From IMG/VR virus record IMGVR_UViG_3300008952_000087, positions 1 through 48,542 of that record: DNA of 48,542 nucleotides; one strand, 5' to 3'. Below the pieces are notes generated by a model. It had not been told where the DNA came from. It saw only the letters and a program-made list of their open reading frames with translations, and ran no database searches. A program made the translations under genes and the position numbers. This DNA is from a virus. The stretch's first letter is position 1, and the number at the start of each line of letters is the position of its first letter. Shown one piece after another: positions 16,357 through 41,768 of the stretch.

Positions 16357-17634
16357 TTAGTCAATCGCGATTACACGTTCGTTAGTTTCAAAGTACGGAC
16401 GATCCGCGTTTGCCTTGGTCGTCATCCACATGCGCTGGCATGCGCTGGAAACTGGCTTAGGAGCACACATATCGGTGAGGATAATGTGACCGTCAAAGTT
16501 GTGATCGTTCACGTACTTAGTGGGTGCATCGAAGCAAGTACCACCACAGAGGACACGTTCCCACTTGCGGGTCTGTCCCTGCTTCCAAACATAAACCTTG
16601 TCCTCGGCAACCTGGGTATCAAAGGGAACCACGGTAAACTCGGCAACTTCGGCCAACTCGTTCAACTCGCTGAAGAACGCTGCCAGCATTGCATCGTCCA
16701 CCGATCCGCTCTGGTCGATGCTGATCGCGATCTTCGCATGGCGGCGCACTCGCTTGCCGGGATGGATGCGCGGGTAACGCTTGTTTAGCCGTCGCGGTGT
16801 GCTGCGCTTGTCGGCTCGCTGGGAGGTTTTGACAAAGTAGCGCAGAACCTTGCGCCAGTCTACACGGGTTTGGATGCGATCAAGGATATCCTGACGCATG
16901 GACGAAGACACAGATCCCCAGTTACGCGCCTTCTCGGCTTCCTCGGCAGCTTTTTTGATCGCCTCCTTCAATCGCTCGGTCGCGATGTCGTTAGCGGTCC
17001 CCTCGGAATCGCCAAACTCATCATGTGAGTCGAAGCTATCAGCACCACCGAACGGGTCACCATCGCCTGGTTGCCCTTCGCCTGGTTGCCCTTCACCGGG
17101 TTGGCCTTCGCCTCCGGATTCCCCCTCTTGATCGCCTTCCTCTTGCTTCTTTTTTAGTGCTTCAAGATACCACTCGTAAGACATGCCCTCTGGCAGTTCA
17201 GCAAATGGACCTTCGCCGGGGATGCATCCCTTCATGGGTTCGCCATTGATGGGTGGACCTGGATCGTCTTCGCCTGGTAGCTTGCCCTTCATCTCGGGCA
17301 ACCCGTTGATGGCCAAGTCCATGGCAATATTATCGATCCGCTTCAAGCCGTCGATAGGCTTGCGACCGGTCACATGCTCAAAGATGATATGATAAAACTC
17401 GTGCATGAGGACGCCCAGCTTGTGATCATCCTTCAATGCTGCCATGAAGTCAGGATTATAAAGCATCTCAAACTGTGCTCGCTCCTCGTTCACGCGGACC
17501 CCAGCCGTGGCGATTGCCTTGGAAGGGGTCTTATCAATCCGACGAGAAAGCGCAGCAAAAAACGGCTCTTGCATGAGCAAGCGCGCGGTGTGCATGTTCA
17601 AGTTGAAGGGGATTTTGGTTTCTTCGTCGTTCAT
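16357..17634 (-). CDS. VWA-like domain metallopeptidase (DUF2201-like)
   Basis: 425 aa. N-terminal zinc site LMHEFYHIIFEHV (HExxH) at residues about 77-89. A Gly/Glu/Pro-rich linker with repeats of GEGQPGEGQP covers about 175-205. The C-terminal half has a VWA-like fold with MIDAS DQSGSV near residue 310. These proteins work with MoxR AAA+ ATPases, here encoded at 18500-19579. The pair probably remodels or cleaves a protein complex; the substrate is unknown. Its own three-box promoter lies 20 nt upstream. Confidence 0.83.
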   Translation of the reverse strand: MNDEETKIPFNLNMHTARLLMQEPFFAALSRRIDKTPSKAIATAGVRVNEERAQFEMLYNPDFMAALKDDHKLGVLMHEFYHIIFEHVTGRKPIDGLKRIDNIAMDLAINGLPEMKGKLPGEDDPGPPINGEPMKGCIPGEGPFAELPEGMSYEWYLEALKKKQEEGDQEGESGGEGQPGEGQPGEGQPGDGDPFGGADSFDSHDEFGDSEGTANDIATERLKEAIKKAAEEAEKARNWGSVSSSMRQDILDRIQTRVDWRKVLRYFVKTSQRADKRSTPRRLNKRYPRIHPGKRVRRHAKIAISIDQSGSVDDAMLAAFFSELNELAEVAEFTVVPFDTQVAEDKVYVWKQGQTRKWERVLCGGTCFDAPTKYVNDHNFDGHIILTDMCAPKPVSSACQRMWMTTKANADRPYFETNERVIAID

Positions 17635-18499: not shown

Positions 18500-19579
18500 T
18501 TAACCTCCCAGGATAGTAACGAGATGATCGCTAACCTTCACACCGCTGGTGGAAGTTGCCTTGTGGAGTGCCACAACGTTCTCGACGTGATCGGAATCAC
18601 CCAGGACTGTCCACAACTTCATGGCCACCTCACTGGGCAGCGTGACAAAGTAGTTAGCCAGGTTTTGCTGGCGAGTCTCAGACAGTTCGTCCTTGAACAC
18701 TTCAGCCGCTTCAAACTTTTCAATCATCGCAGCGTGGTCGTTGATGCCCCACTCCTTCGTTTTGTCCAGCTTGCCAGCATCGAGTAGATCCTCGATAGTT
18801 ACCTGCCATGCGTAGTTCTCAACGAAGTCCTTTAGAGCAACCGCAGCCTCGAAACCAAGGAACGCGGTGGCAAGGTTGAAAAGAAGATCGCCACTGCCGT
18901 CTTTCTCGAAGACGCCCGCCGGTTCTGCGGTCATGTTGAAGCGATCCCAGGACCGACGTGAAGGATAAACCTTGTTAGGTTCAAAATCACCCTTGTGCTC
19001 AAGGTGCTGACGGTTCTGGTTGATGAAGTCCCAAACGACCGTGTTAACGGTGCCGTTCTTCGCCCACTTGAGCCAATCCTCATCGGTCGGTTCAACGTCG
19101 AACACGGTCCAACGATCAAGTTCTGCGGGATCCATCTCGCCCACTTGGTACTGTGCGCCGTGGTCGCCACCGTTGACAGCAGCAACGATCAAAGTCTCGG
19201 GGTGCAAATGCCAGCCGTTGATCTTCCGGCTATCGGTAAGCTCAAAAAGACCTTGACGCACTTCGACAGTCGCGCGATCCACTTCATCAAGGAACAACAA
19301 CACAGGTTGCTCGCAAGCGGTCACGAGCCAATCGGGCGCGTTCCAAGTCGTGGCCTTACGACCATTGATCGAGGTTTCAGCAGTGTCGGGCAGTCCCAAC
19401 AGGTCGCCCTCGGTCATTTGAGAGGCGCGCCGCTCTACTACGGGCAAATCGCGCGCGTCAGCAATCTGGTACACTACCTGGGATTTGCCGACGCCATGGC
19501 GACCGCGAATAAGGACCGGCAGCTTAGCCTCGAGGATATGAGGAGCGACGGCAGTAAAAGTTGCAAAGTCTACGGACAT
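18500..19579 (-). CDS. MoxR-type AAA+ ATPase
   Basis: 359 aa. Walker A GRHGVGKS at residues about 26-33, Walker B VLLFLDEVDRA near 91-101 and a sensor-1-like AAVNGG near 131. MoxR ATPases work with VWA-domain partners as chaperone-like remodelling machines; the partner is probably the VWA metallopeptidase at 16357-17634. The start MSVDFATFTA has a CTGGAG site upstream, behind the 19619 promoter. Confidence 0.87.
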   Translation of the reverse strand: MSVDFATFTAVAPHILEAKLPVLIRGRHGVGKSQVVYQIADARDLPVVERRASQMTEGDLLGLPDTAETSINGRKATTWNAPDWLVTACEQPVLLFLDEVDRATVEVRQGLFELTDSRKINGWHLHPETLIVAAVNGGDHGAQYQVGEMDPAELDRWTVFDVEPTDEDWLKWAKNGTVNTVVWDFINQNRQHLEHKGDFEPNKVYPSRRSWDRFNMTAEPAGVFEKDGSGDLLFNLATAFLGFEAAVALKDFVENYAWQVTIEDLLDAGKLDKTKEWGINDHAAMIEKFEAAEVFKDELSETRQQNLANYFVTLPSEVAMKLWTVLGDSDHVENVVALHKATSTSGVKVSDHLVTILGG

Positions 19580-20299: not shown

Positions 20300-21154
20300 T
20301 TAACCCTTTCTCTCTTTAAGCGCGGCATCAATAATAGGAGACTCGCCGGAAAGCCAGTTAGCGGGCGGCTTAATGGTCGCTCCACTTACGCCTGACAATA
20401 GAACCTTGCGGTTATACATACGATCCTCGACTTCCGGGCGCATTACCCACGACCCAATGATGGCACCCTCTGTTGTGGAAATAACACCATCGTGGTTGAT
20501 TCGCATGCGCTCGCCCATATCATCGTAAATGTAGGGAAGCTCGAGCCGTTGGGTGTTGTGTGTTGCAAACTCATTCACCCTTTGGGTTACAAAGATCGCT
20601 TCTGCCGGAGAAAATACAGTAACTCGGTCCCACTCCACGCCCTTAATCATGGTCGCCACGTCGCGACGGTCCCACGTAGTCTCGCCGGGGTTATTGGGAT
20701 CGGGAAAGTATCCCGAGAGTTTCTGAGACACGAGCGCACCAACGCCGATCCCAGTCTCTTGCATGTGCTCCAAGACTGCCTTGCGCAAGATTGCGGTAGC
20801 CGCGACAGCCTTGCGCCTGTCTTCTTTCATAGCCGCACATGTGCGACGAGTATGGCCAACCCCGTGATCTTCGTCATAGGGTTGTTGGTACTTGCAGTAA
20901 GAGCAACGGCGCTTAGGTCCACGCTTTACCAGCTTTTCGCCGGTTTGCGGGTTGGTTCCTGTGCGCTTGGCGATCTGCTTCGCCATGCGTTCTACTCGAG
21001 TCTCGTCCCAAGACGAACCGCCACCGCTCGCAATGGCGTCCGCAAGGTGCTTATAGTTTTTTTGCAACCTCTCGGTCAGTTGTGGACAAGACCGCTTATT
21101 GTGTCCTTGTTGGTAGCATGCGCCACATGTAACGGTTCCGCGAAAGTTTCCCAT
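20300..21154 (-). CDS. Zinc-knuckle protein
   Basis: 284 aa. Residues 10-23, CGACYQQGHNKRSC, are an exact CX2CX4HX4C retroviral-type zinc knuckle. A second Cys/His set (CSYCKYQQP, then GHTRRTC) lies near residues 84-106. The knuckles suggest single-stranded nucleic-acid binding. The C-terminal 150 residues are unfamiliar (WDRVTVFSPAEAIFV, HDGVISTTEGAIIGSW). Related uncharacterised proteins occur in other large phages. Confidence 0.72.
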   Translation of the reverse strand: MGNFRGTVTCGACYQQGHNKRSCPQLTERLQKNYKHLADAIASGGGSSWDETRVERMAKQIAKRTGTNPQTGEKLVKRGPKRRCSYCKYQQPYDEDHGVGHTRRTCAAMKEDRRKAVAATAILRKAVLEHMQETGIGVGALVSQKLSGYFPDPNNPGETTWDRRDVATMIKGVEWDRVTVFSPAEAIFVTQRVNEFATHNTQRLELPYIYDDMGERMRINHDGVISTTEGAIIGSWVMRPEVEDRMYNRKVLLSGVSGATIKPPANWLSGESPIIDAALKERKG

Positions 21155-21431: not shown

Positions 21432-21485
21432 ATTATCTCATAAAGAAGGGAGGAAGTCAAGCCTCTCATGTCAGGAGAATGTCAA
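21432..21485 (-). promoter_or_regulatory. Three-box early promoter (copy 8)
   Basis: TTGACA-N5-CTGACA-N8-TTGACT-N17-GATAAT with TGA extended -10. It follows the structured RNA and lies directly against the ATG at 21425. Confidence 0.87.
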
Positions 21486-21500
21486 GAAAGGTTTGATTAA

Positions 21501-21671
21501 GGAGGCGATAGAAGGTGTGTGCTGTCCTTGCCGCACTCGTCGCTTAGTCCCGCTTTAACTACCTTTCGGCATGCCTGCCTATAAATCTGATCGATTTAAA
21601 ACCCTTGTTTCAGCAGATGGGTTCGTTTGGGACGGTGAACCCGCCTTTAAATATTGCCTTCTATCGCCCCC
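21501..21671 (-). ncRNA. Candidate structured RNA closed by a 15-bp helix
   Basis: The two ends (21657-21671 and 21501-21515) are complementary over 15 positions with a single G-U pair when read as minus-strand RNA; read as plus-strand RNA that pair becomes an A-C mismatch, favouring the minus strand. Inside are GGGTTC-N12-GAACCC, AAATC-N5-GATTT, a TGCCG...CGGCA pairing and GTGC-N10-GCAC. There is no ORF of note in this 184-nt intergenic stretch. It lies 8 nt after the stop of the 268-aa gene. It does not match tmRNA, 6S, RNase P or SRP RNA by eye. Confidence 0.6.
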
Positions 21672-21679
21672 ACCACAAA

Positions 21680-22486
21680 TCACTTCTTAGGAATGCGCAC
21701 CTTTTTAAGGTGGCGTTCCTCCACTAAAACCGTTTGCATGCCGCCGACTGGCAACAACTTGTAAACTTTGTTGCCACGAGATGCGGACACGGGAACCATC
21801 GCATTAGCTTGGATCACCACGCCAATGTCATTGGGAAACTTTTGCGAGAGGGTGTAGCCAGCACTCGCACGTAATGAAACCATGCTCCCCGTCTCGTACT
21901 TTGGAGCATTAAAATAGCCGTCCAAAATCTTGATGGCATACTTGTTTTCAGTCACACGCTCATAATCCCGTTGCGAAGGGATCTTTGACGGGTCGCGCCG
22001 ATGTGCGCTGACCACACTGCTAAAATAGCCTTCTTTCTTATAGTATTCAAGGGCCACATTAAATCTTTCTTTCATGTCAATCGTGAAGTTCCGTTCCCAT
22101 ACTTGGCGGCCCGCAAGTTTCTCTTCGCTGTACTGTTCTTCAATCTGCCCCAGATAGTTGAGTTGACGATCCGACAAAGTTGCGCCGGTTTGCGCCTGCT
22201 TCAAAAGGCTCAACGAGAACTTGTCCGCCCAGCTATTATCACATGCGCCTACGCTGGCCATGCGTTCGCGCACGCCTTCAAGTCTCGATACCATGTGATC
22301 ATCTGCGACGGGGGGCGTTGCATAGCGTTCCTCAAGCTGAAGAAAACACCGACGACGCCCAGCACTCAAAACCTTTTTGCGCTGGTAGGAGGTGAACAGC
22401 GACTCCGCAAACTTGCGATCACGGTCGCTCAAGTAATCTTTGGCCAGCAATGTGGCGAAGCGGTCGGCGTAAGTGATGCGGGGCAT
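21680..22486 (-). CDS. Two helical repeats plus SH3-like domain, 268 aa
   Basis: Two related helical units, FATLLAKDYLSDRDRKFAES near residue 10 and FSLSLLKQAQTGATLSDRQL near 89, each with LSDRxx. The C-terminal 65 residues (SMVSLRASAGYTL, DIGVVIQANAMV, YKLLPVGGMQ, VEERHLKKV) repeat the SH3-like pattern of the small family as a fused domain. AAGGAG site. Function unknown; the fusion may show where the small proteins act. Confidence 0.68.
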   Translation of the reverse strand: MPRITYADRFATLLAKDYLSDRDRKFAESLFTSYQRKKVLSAGRRRCFLQLEERYATPPVADDHMVSRLEGVRERMASVGACDNSWADKFSLSLLKQAQTGATLSDRQLNYLGQIEEQYSEEKLAGRQVWERNFTIDMKERFNVALEYYKKEGYFSSVVSAHRRDPSKIPSQRDYERVTENKYAIKILDGYFNAPKYETGSMVSLRASAGYTLSQKFPNDIGVVIQANAMVPVSASRGNKVYKLLPVGGMQTVLVEERHLKKVRIPKK

Positions 22487-40196: not shown

Positions 40197-41768
40197 TTAC
40201 TCCGTTTGTATAATACCATAGTTAGTTGTGATGAGGGTACCGGCACAACTAATTGCATTTTGCAGCGCTGTGCGCGTCACCTTCACCGGATCGATGATTC
40301 CGTTTTCATAAAGATCAACTAACTCATCTTGACGGAAATCCCATCCAGTTTTTTCATCAGTCTCTGTGATCTTTTGAATGATGATGTCCGCTGATTTTCC
40401 TGCATTCTGAGCCATTTGTCTAAGAGGGGCGCAGCAAGCGGCTTGGACAATAGAGCGAGCCAAAGTATGCTCGCCGGCGCTCCCTAAAGATGCCAATGCC
40501 ATACCGCTGCGCAATAAAGCAGTGCCTCCTCCTCCTACTATTCCCTCTTCTTGCGCCGACCGCACAGCCTCTAAGGCGTCTTCAATACGATGTTTGCGCT
40601 CTGTCATCTCAATTTCTGTGGCTCCCCCCACATGGATAACCGCTACCCCGGACGACAATCTCACAATACGCTCTTGGATCTGCTCGCACTTTTGAATTGA
40701 TTCAGTCTGACTAATCAGTGCTTTTAAATTCTCAATGCGTTCTTCTACTTTTTCAAAATTTGCATGTCCTCCCACAAGAGTAGTCCTGTATTGAGTACTT
40801 TCAATAAACTTGGCGCTTCCTAGGTGAGACATTTGCACGTCCGGTAACTTAATACCGCTTTCGCGAGTTATAAAGGTTGCACCAATTGAAGTTGCGAGAT
40901 CATCTAAGGTGTGGCGCCTTTCTTCTCCATATCGCGGTGCTTTGATAGCGGCCACTTTCATAGTGCCACGCATGGCATTCATAATAAGAGCCGCTAAAGC
41001 TTGACCTTCTATATCTTCTGCAACAATGACTAGGGGGCGCCCTTCTCTTGCCATCATTTCCAAAAGAGGTAAAATTTGTTCTACAGTTGTAATCTTATAG
41101 TCGGTTACCAAAATGAGCGGCTCCTCATGGTGCATAACCGCCCTGCGCTCATCGGTAACAAAAGCGCCGGCGCAGTACCCAGCATCAAACCTAAACCCCT
41201 CTGTAACGTCAAGGGAAGTTTCCAGCGACCGTGACTCTTCAATGGTGATTGATCCGTCTTGTCCAACGCGATCAACAGCTAACGCAATAAGTTCACCTAT
41301 TGTCTTATCATTGTTTGCGGATATAGTGGCAATATGCTGAATGTCTTCGATGCTTTGCACTGGGCGCGCCAATTCTTTAAGGTTGGCTGTTACTTCCTGC
41401 ACTACCGAATTCAATCCTCGTTGTAATTCTATCGGAGACATGCCGGCTAAAATATATTTCTGAGATTCTAATAGGATTGATCGCGCTAGCACTGTAGCCG
41501 TTGTGGTCCCGTCACCAGCGTCACTATTAGTTTGAATAGCTGCCTGTTTGATAATTTGGGCGCCTGCATTTTCGAAAGGATCATCAAGCGCAACAAAATG
41601 CGCTACCGTGACCCCATCTTTTGTAATAAAAGGAATCTTCCCCTTTTCCTGCAACAAAACATTACGACCACGTGGTCCCAATGTAGACGCAACGTTGTCT
41701 GTCAGAACATTTACTCCCTTCATAATTTTTTGTTGTAAACTTTCTTTACTCTCATAATCTCTACTCAA
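40197..41768 (-). CDS. groEL: GroEL-type chaperonin (Hsp60)
   Basis: 523 aa, close to full length. GPRGRNVLLQEKG and DAGDGTTTATVLARSI near residue 85 hold the ATPase site, with GGGGTALLRSG near 402. The C-terminal GGM tail of many bacterial GroELs is missing. TTG is the start (S-R-D-Y-E-S), preceded by GAGGTG, behind its own promoter. Phage chaperonins are known in a few large phages and likely fold capsid or other bulky proteins; no clear GroES is in the window. Confidence 0.95.
   Translation of the reverse strand: MSRDYESKESLQQKIMKGVNVLTDNVASTLGPRGRNVLLQEKGKIPFITKDGVTVAHFVALDDPFENAGAQIIKQAAIQTNSDAGDGTTTATVLARSILLESQKYILAGMSPIELQRGLNSVVQEVTANLKELARPVQSIEDIQHIATISANNDKTIGELIALAVDRVGQDGSITIEESRSLETSLDVTEGFRFDAGYCAGAFVTDERRAVMHHEEPLILVTDYKITTVEQILPLLEMMAREGRPLVIVAEDIEGQALAALIMNAMRGTMKVAAIKAPRYGEERRHTLDDLATSIGATFITRESGIKLPDVQMSHLGSAKFIESTQYRTTLVGGHANFEKVEERIENLKALISQTESIQKCEQIQERIVRLSSGVAVIHVGGATEIEMTERKHRIEDALEAVRSAQEEGIVGGGGTALLRSGMALASLGSAGEHTLARSIVQAACCAPLRQMAQNAGKSADIIIQKITETDEKTGWDFRQDELVDLYENGIIDPVKVTRTALQNAISCAGTLITTNYGIIQTE

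Follow-up and report, generated by a model that had tools for sequence, protein, structure and literature searches.

The locus at positions 21501 to 21671 raises the question of whether its 171 nucleotides give rise to a structured RNA and, if so, what such an RNA does. The stretch lies in the window (the whole stretch of viral DNA that was analysed, 48,542 nucleotides), and the initial annotation had drawn it as an RNA candidate of the minus strand whose ends are closed by a 15-bp helix. The helix was recovered with the coordinates and the strand claimed, as 14 Watson-Crick pairs and one G-U pair; the non-Watson-Crick position is G-U on the minus strand, and transcription of the plus strand would give A-C. 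The RNA strand of 21501-21671 carries no ORF, and the element is flanked, as had been described, by a gene stop (21680) and a three-box promoter (21485-21432). The element and its borders are as follows.

21501 to 21671, minus strand: structured RNA of 171 nt, read from 21671 to 21501; covariance model (CM) match of 105 bits, E 6.7e-28
21657 to 21671, minus strand: 5' strand of the closing helix P1, GGGGGCGAUAGAAGG, pairing with CCUUCUAUCGCCUCC; 13 of 13 modelled P1 pairs covary in relatives
21501 to 21515, minus strand: 3' strand of P1, CCUUCUAUCGCCUCC, pairing with GGGGGCGAUAGAAGG
21680 to 22486, minus strand: upstream gene of 268 aa without a known family; its stop codon lies 9 nt before the RNA
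21432 to 21485, minus strand: three-box promoter TTGACATTCTCCTGACA-N8-TTGACTT-N17-GATAAT, directly downstream of the RNA

The minus strand of 21501-21671 folds at -60.3 kcal/mol, with a z of -4.5 against shuffles, and the plus strand is nearly as stable (z -4.2). On the minus strand of the window, 7 helices of at least 15 pairs (G-U allowed, span 100-220 nt) were found, against 1-2 in resampled sequence. Since helices that long occur by chance, once or twice per window-sized resampled sequence, the 15-bp helix is weak evidence by itself. An end helix that is not rare and a plus strand that folds nearly as well would both suit a chance fold; the reality of the RNA rests on homologues with covariation and not on the end helix alone.

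A 113-kb IMG/VR phage (L002) encodes a relative of the 268-aa protein (57% identical), and this gene is directly followed by a copy of the RNA that shares about 80% identity with the window copy. Its P1, GGAGGCGAUAGAGAG/CUCUCUAUCGCCUCC, shows a compensated change relative to the window arms. Relatives were sought via the neighbouring AAA ATPase; 80 of the 304 related contigs that it identified were fetched, and further copies surfaced by weak blastn matches and then by a loop motif. With covariance model R1 the loci yielded 22 matches (21 at E 0.003 or better), and model R2 found the RNA in 26 of 49 whole phage records (up to about 200 kb), with 1-2 copies each. The 23 records without a CM match are fragments or beyond the reach of the model. 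Two copies were present in at least 5 records when R1 and R2 were combined, and the element at 21501-21671 is the sole significant CM copy in the window.

The relatives are without exception uncultured IMG/VR records, often fragmentary, and many of their sample numbers are probably marine. Among cultured phages no close relative of the phage turned up, and a blastn search of the RNA against them returned chance matches only. Exact P1-arm patterns were found in no viral contig or in the L002 phage only. A motif scan of genome contigs yielded 118 stretches that were attributed to chance, the fetched ones matching the scanned motif alone.

Between the two strands of P1, the RNA contains the following elements.

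21619 to 21642, minus strand: P2 hairpin GGGUUC-ACCGUCCCAAAC-GAACCC; 99.2% of cells paired, double changes in 4 of 6 pairs
21629 to 21633, minus strand: 5' strand of a pseudoknot, GUCCC, inside the P2 loop; covariation
21561 to 21570, minus strand: P3b mini-hairpin GCC-GAAA-GGU; 91% of cells paired
21552 to 21560, minus strand: conserved single-stranded joiner AGUUAAAGC (family consensus AGUnRAAR), preceding the pseudoknot strand
21547 to 21551, minus strand: 3' strand of the pseudoknot, GGGAC, downstream of P2; covariation
21540 to 21546, minus strand: conserved UAAGCGA following the pseudoknot strand; most relatives have URGCGA
21519 to 21536, minus strand: P4 hairpin GUGC-GGCAAGGACA-GCAC with a conserved loop; family consensus GCGGYRARRACAGC

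The stretch preceding P3b, P3a, is variable and missing from the shortest relatives. From the aligned sequences, the architecture of the class is almost certainly a closing helix P1, a conserved joiner, P2 with a loop that is pseudoknotted to a strand before P4, and an optional, variable P3. The unpaired stretches conserved in the class are AGUnRAAR, URGCGA and the P4 loop GGYRARRACA.

Covariation was scored on P1, P2, the pseudoknot, P3b and P4 in a first alignment of 10 copies. Both sides had changed in 22 of 32 pairs, and the score was 0.405 (shuffles 0.172 +/- 0.021, slid controls 0.08-0.15). In a second alignment, of 22 copies aligned to R1 with a mean pairwise identity of 52%, 96.2% of the cells were paired, both sides had changed in 23 of 31 pairs, and the score rose to 0.729 (shuffles 0.181 +/- 0.017, slid controls 0.12-0.16). 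Compensatory changes in P1, which the initial annotation had named as a check, were observed as double-sided changes at all 13 modelled P1 pairs of the 22 copies. G-U cells numbered 31 and A-C cells 5 in this family, confirming that the minus strand is the transcribed one.

The pseudoknot provides an independent test, because R1 did not model it. Taken alone in the 22 copies, it was paired in 93.9% of the cells, with 24 double-change cells against 5.8 +/- 1.9 in shuffles and a score of 0.684 against 0.231 +/- 0.039; one position takes all four Watson-Crick orders (UA, GC, AU and CG). A free pairing search of the P2 loops against the whole downstream regions gave 14.6 for matched and 13.3 for permuted partners (4/5000), a modest signal that is due to the wide search space, and the aligned test is the proper one.

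A chance fold or an alignment artefact is refuted by the 22-copy covariation and by that of the pseudoknot. Covariation, the unmodelled pseudoknot included, lies far beyond the shuffled and slid controls, and whole-length CM matches reach E 1e-22 to 1e-36 in independent phage records, which leaves this explanation practically no probability. The 171-base stretch is almost certainly a real structured RNA, the fold of which is kept in relatives despite sequence turnover. The proposal of an RNA candidate was thus upheld by the covariation and by the lack of an Rfam match; the central pseudoknot had not been part of it. In the family consensus the letters of P1 are not conserved, whereas parts of the unpaired core are, which suggests that the core is a binding surface.

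The RNA was compared with the 4227 models of Rfam 15. No match was obtained on the RNA in the window, in L002 or in 15 other loci, even at E<=1-10, save for chance scores; an overlap with tmRNA_permuted in the scan of L110 and L107 was driven by the adjoining tmRNA. The initial annotation had found the element unlike tmRNA, 6S, RNase P, SRP RNA and the core of a group I intron. ARAGORN and RF00023 place a tmRNA only in a separate neighbouring gene. Other candidates were rejected as well. For a bacterial Y RNA, such as YrlA (RF02553), in which paired ends also close the RNA, there was no Rfam match, and a TROVE/Ro60 gene was present in 0 of 13 RNA-bearing records. The same 13 records contain no RVT_1 reverse transcriptase, which removes a retron ncRNA (msr-msd). 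Letter matches by eye to RNase P or the hammerhead are not kept across homologues and have no CM support. Literature searches returned no description of such an RNA. What is new is the RNA family; structured RNAs of phages in general were known before.

Most copies begin 1-23 nt past a stop codon. At least 4 unrelated families are represented directly upstream of the RNA: the 268-aa protein, a small HTH-like protein, a 125-aa 'MGYRSEV' protein and the ATPase itself. The RNA thus accompanies no one protein in particular; the downstream genes belong to no single pathway. One copy lies in the ATPase/zinc-knuckle region, and some genomes have a second copy upstream of the phage tmRNA gene, at a distance of 4 nt in L107 and 8 nt in L110 and with an intervening ORF in others. 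Of 13 RNA-bearing records tested, 11 contain a tmRNA that passes the family cut-off, and the ATPase-region copies of L094, L095 and L100 have tRNA genes within about 0.3-1.2 kb. From these surroundings, the RNA appears to be a unit of its own, borne by the tails and leaders of transcripts. Phage-encoded tmRNA genes were seen in L105, L107, L110-L113 and L259-L268, with tags such as ANNNNHFDSVRLAA, some of them followed by tRNA-Gly(GCC).

The distance of 4-8 nt from the tmRNA in two phages, together with the compact pseudoknotted fold and its conserved unpaired letters, would suit a ribozyme that cleaves itself or processes RNA and so frees RNA ends, such as the 5' side of the tmRNA. We consider this very unlikely, since most copies do not adjoin a tmRNA, no Rfam ribozyme family matches, and a cleavage site is not marked by any conserved letter outside the core.

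The 3' side of the RNA was analysed for promoters and transcript ends. Ten three-box promoters of the form TTGACATTCTC(T/C)TGACA-N8-TTGACTT-N17-(G/T)ATA(A/C)T lie between 15262 and 25537 of the window, all of them on the minus strand; the plus strand has none. Their two upstream boxes repeat each other directly at a spacing of about 11 nt and resemble a phage activator or repressor site. In L015 (2656-2804), L093, L034, L038, L043 and L024, box 1 (CTTGACATT) of the following promoter shares bases with the 3' arm of P1, which makes this box complementary to the RNA's 5' arm. The first 8 nt past the modelled RNA end contain 3.85 T on average, against 2.1-2.6 in later bins, and 42% of the copies have at least 5 T there, against 0-12%. 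Clear T-runs follow P1 in L069, L084, L067 and L103; in the window copy (TTAATCAA) the enrichment is weak. The T-rich 8 nt make P1 terminator-like in several relatives, and part of this T-richness stems from promoter box 1 overlapping the P1 end.

These observations bear on the main rival of a trans-acting RNA, a cis-acting 3'-end element in which P1 forms last, ends transcription at the T-rich stretch and protects the upstream mRNA from 3'-5' exonucleases, insulating gene units from the next promoter. The start of most copies just past a stop codon fits such an element, as does the T-richness, and gene-trailing copies with P1 and then T-runs could be elaborate terminators. The minus strand of the window, with its many single-gene promoters, also has no more ordinary terminators than expected (18 against 18.1). 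However, the box 1 overlap accounts for part of the T enrichment, terminators need no conserved pseudoknot core, and the copies 4-8 nt before a tmRNA end no coding transcript. Moreover, records of up to about 200 kb hold only 1-2 copies although many genes have their own promoters. We regard this element as possible, if on the unlikely side.

Several known RNAs resemble the present one in part; the closest published ones are manA/wcaG and putRNA, neither of which is related to it by sequence model. In SAM-I and SAM-IV riboswitches the strands follow the order P1-P2(loop pseudoknot)-P3-joiner-P4-P1'. The present RNA has the same order, but it sits after genes, no SAM-pathway gene was among the neighbours examined, and a SAM-I-like riboswitch was rejected because the CMs of these types gave no match. 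GOLLD and ROOL are far larger than the present RNA. They are likewise structured RNAs of bacteria and phages with no assigned function (PMC12286853), but gave no CM match to it. The manA and wcaG RNAs (RF01745, RF01761) are also structured RNAs discovered by covariation, mainly from marine metagenomes and cyanophages, and each is associated with particular kinds of genes that it apparently regulates (PMC2864571); the present RNA, in contrast, follows unrelated genes or precedes a tmRNA, and shows no CM match. The L17 downstream element (RF01708) is a conserved RNA in bacterial 3' UTRs (PMC2864571) but is tied to one gene, whereas the present RNA accompanies several unrelated genes and has no CM match to it. 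The HK022 putRNA, a phage cis element that acts on the polymerase that made it (PMC9378689), and the epsC/EAR element (RF01735), for which a pseudoknot is also predicted (PMC2864571), are compact phage or bacterial elements inside transcripts. The present RNA differs from both in that it lies at the ends of transcripts, mostly with a new promoter behind it, and has no Rfam match.

With putRNA as a precedent for such phage elements (PMC9378689), a put/EAR-like or riboswitch-like cis regulator was considered, which would sense a ligand or modify RNA polymerase and so control read-through into the downstream genes or the tmRNA. It would be in line with the SAM-I-type strand order, the conserved unpaired core and the complete promoter just ahead of the RNA in L095. 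Against it, the downstream genes share no pathway, no Rfam riboswitch family matches at any level, and most copies have their own promoter after the RNA and hence no obvious regulated downstream gene. This reading appears unlikely.

The neighbouring proteins were inspected for a possible partner of the RNA.

20300 to 21154, minus strand: downstream gene, 284 aa, with a zinc-knuckle-like motif CX2CX4HX4C; possible RNA-binding partner
18500 to 19579, minus strand: AAA ATPase gene that marks the conserved neighbourhood; anchor for finding relatives

Nearly all ATPase-region copies have a zinc-knuckle gene no more than about 4 kb away, and where the flank is long enough almost every locus encodes the protein close to the ATPase. 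The L084 homologue exceeds the Pfam zf-CCHC cut-off in two stretches. The protein has one or two CX2CX4HX4C knuckles; two clear ones, like those of retroviral nucleocapsid, are seen in L084 (7216-7908) and L090 (1767-2480). As the gene is also present at loci where no RNA was found, and as both were found via the same ATPase anchor, the proximity is weak evidence of a partnership, and the protein is only a lead as a candidate partner of the RNA. Elsewhere in the window, a VWA-like DUF2201 protein (16357-17634) is paired with the ATPase, which is of the MoxR type (18500-19579), and this pair is conserved across the phage group. A long run of very small genes occupies 10000-31000, many starting with MKVGDLV and encoding paralogous short proteins that look KOW/SH3-like by eye, and a GroEL-like phage chaperonin (phrog_5725, E 1e-140) is encoded at 40197-41768.

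The initial annotation had offered a phage regulatory RNA or a processing-stabilised 3' UTR. Both fit the position after a stop codon. A free RNA is favoured, relative to a generic stabiliser of 3' UTRs, by the 1-2 copies per genome, the unrelated adjoining genes and the copies before a tmRNA. With a little less than even confidence, we prefer a new class of small structured phage RNA that is made within longer transcripts and probably acts in trans via a bound protein. Transcription would yield such an RNA as an mRNA tail or a pre-tmRNA leader, and it would be released or end at P1. P1 would mainly keep the ends together and shield them from exonucleases, and the stable small RNA would act in trans with its conserved core binding a protein, for which the zinc-knuckle protein encoded nearby is the candidate. 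A further proposal, which we hold to be improbable, is that the pseudoknotted RNA is held by the zinc-knuckle protein and works with the phage tmRNA and tRNAs in a translation-takeover set, or that it is a new ligand-binding RNA or ribozyme.

Taken together, the analysis reveals a class of structured RNA outside Rfam, established by covariation, in an uncultured phage group with records of up to about 200 kb. Two features together point to a specific molecular partner, namely unpaired letters conserved as in riboswitches and a closing helix that has turned over completely. The links to the tmRNA and the twin zinc-knuckle protein lead to testable hypotheses on how phage RNA may control expression.
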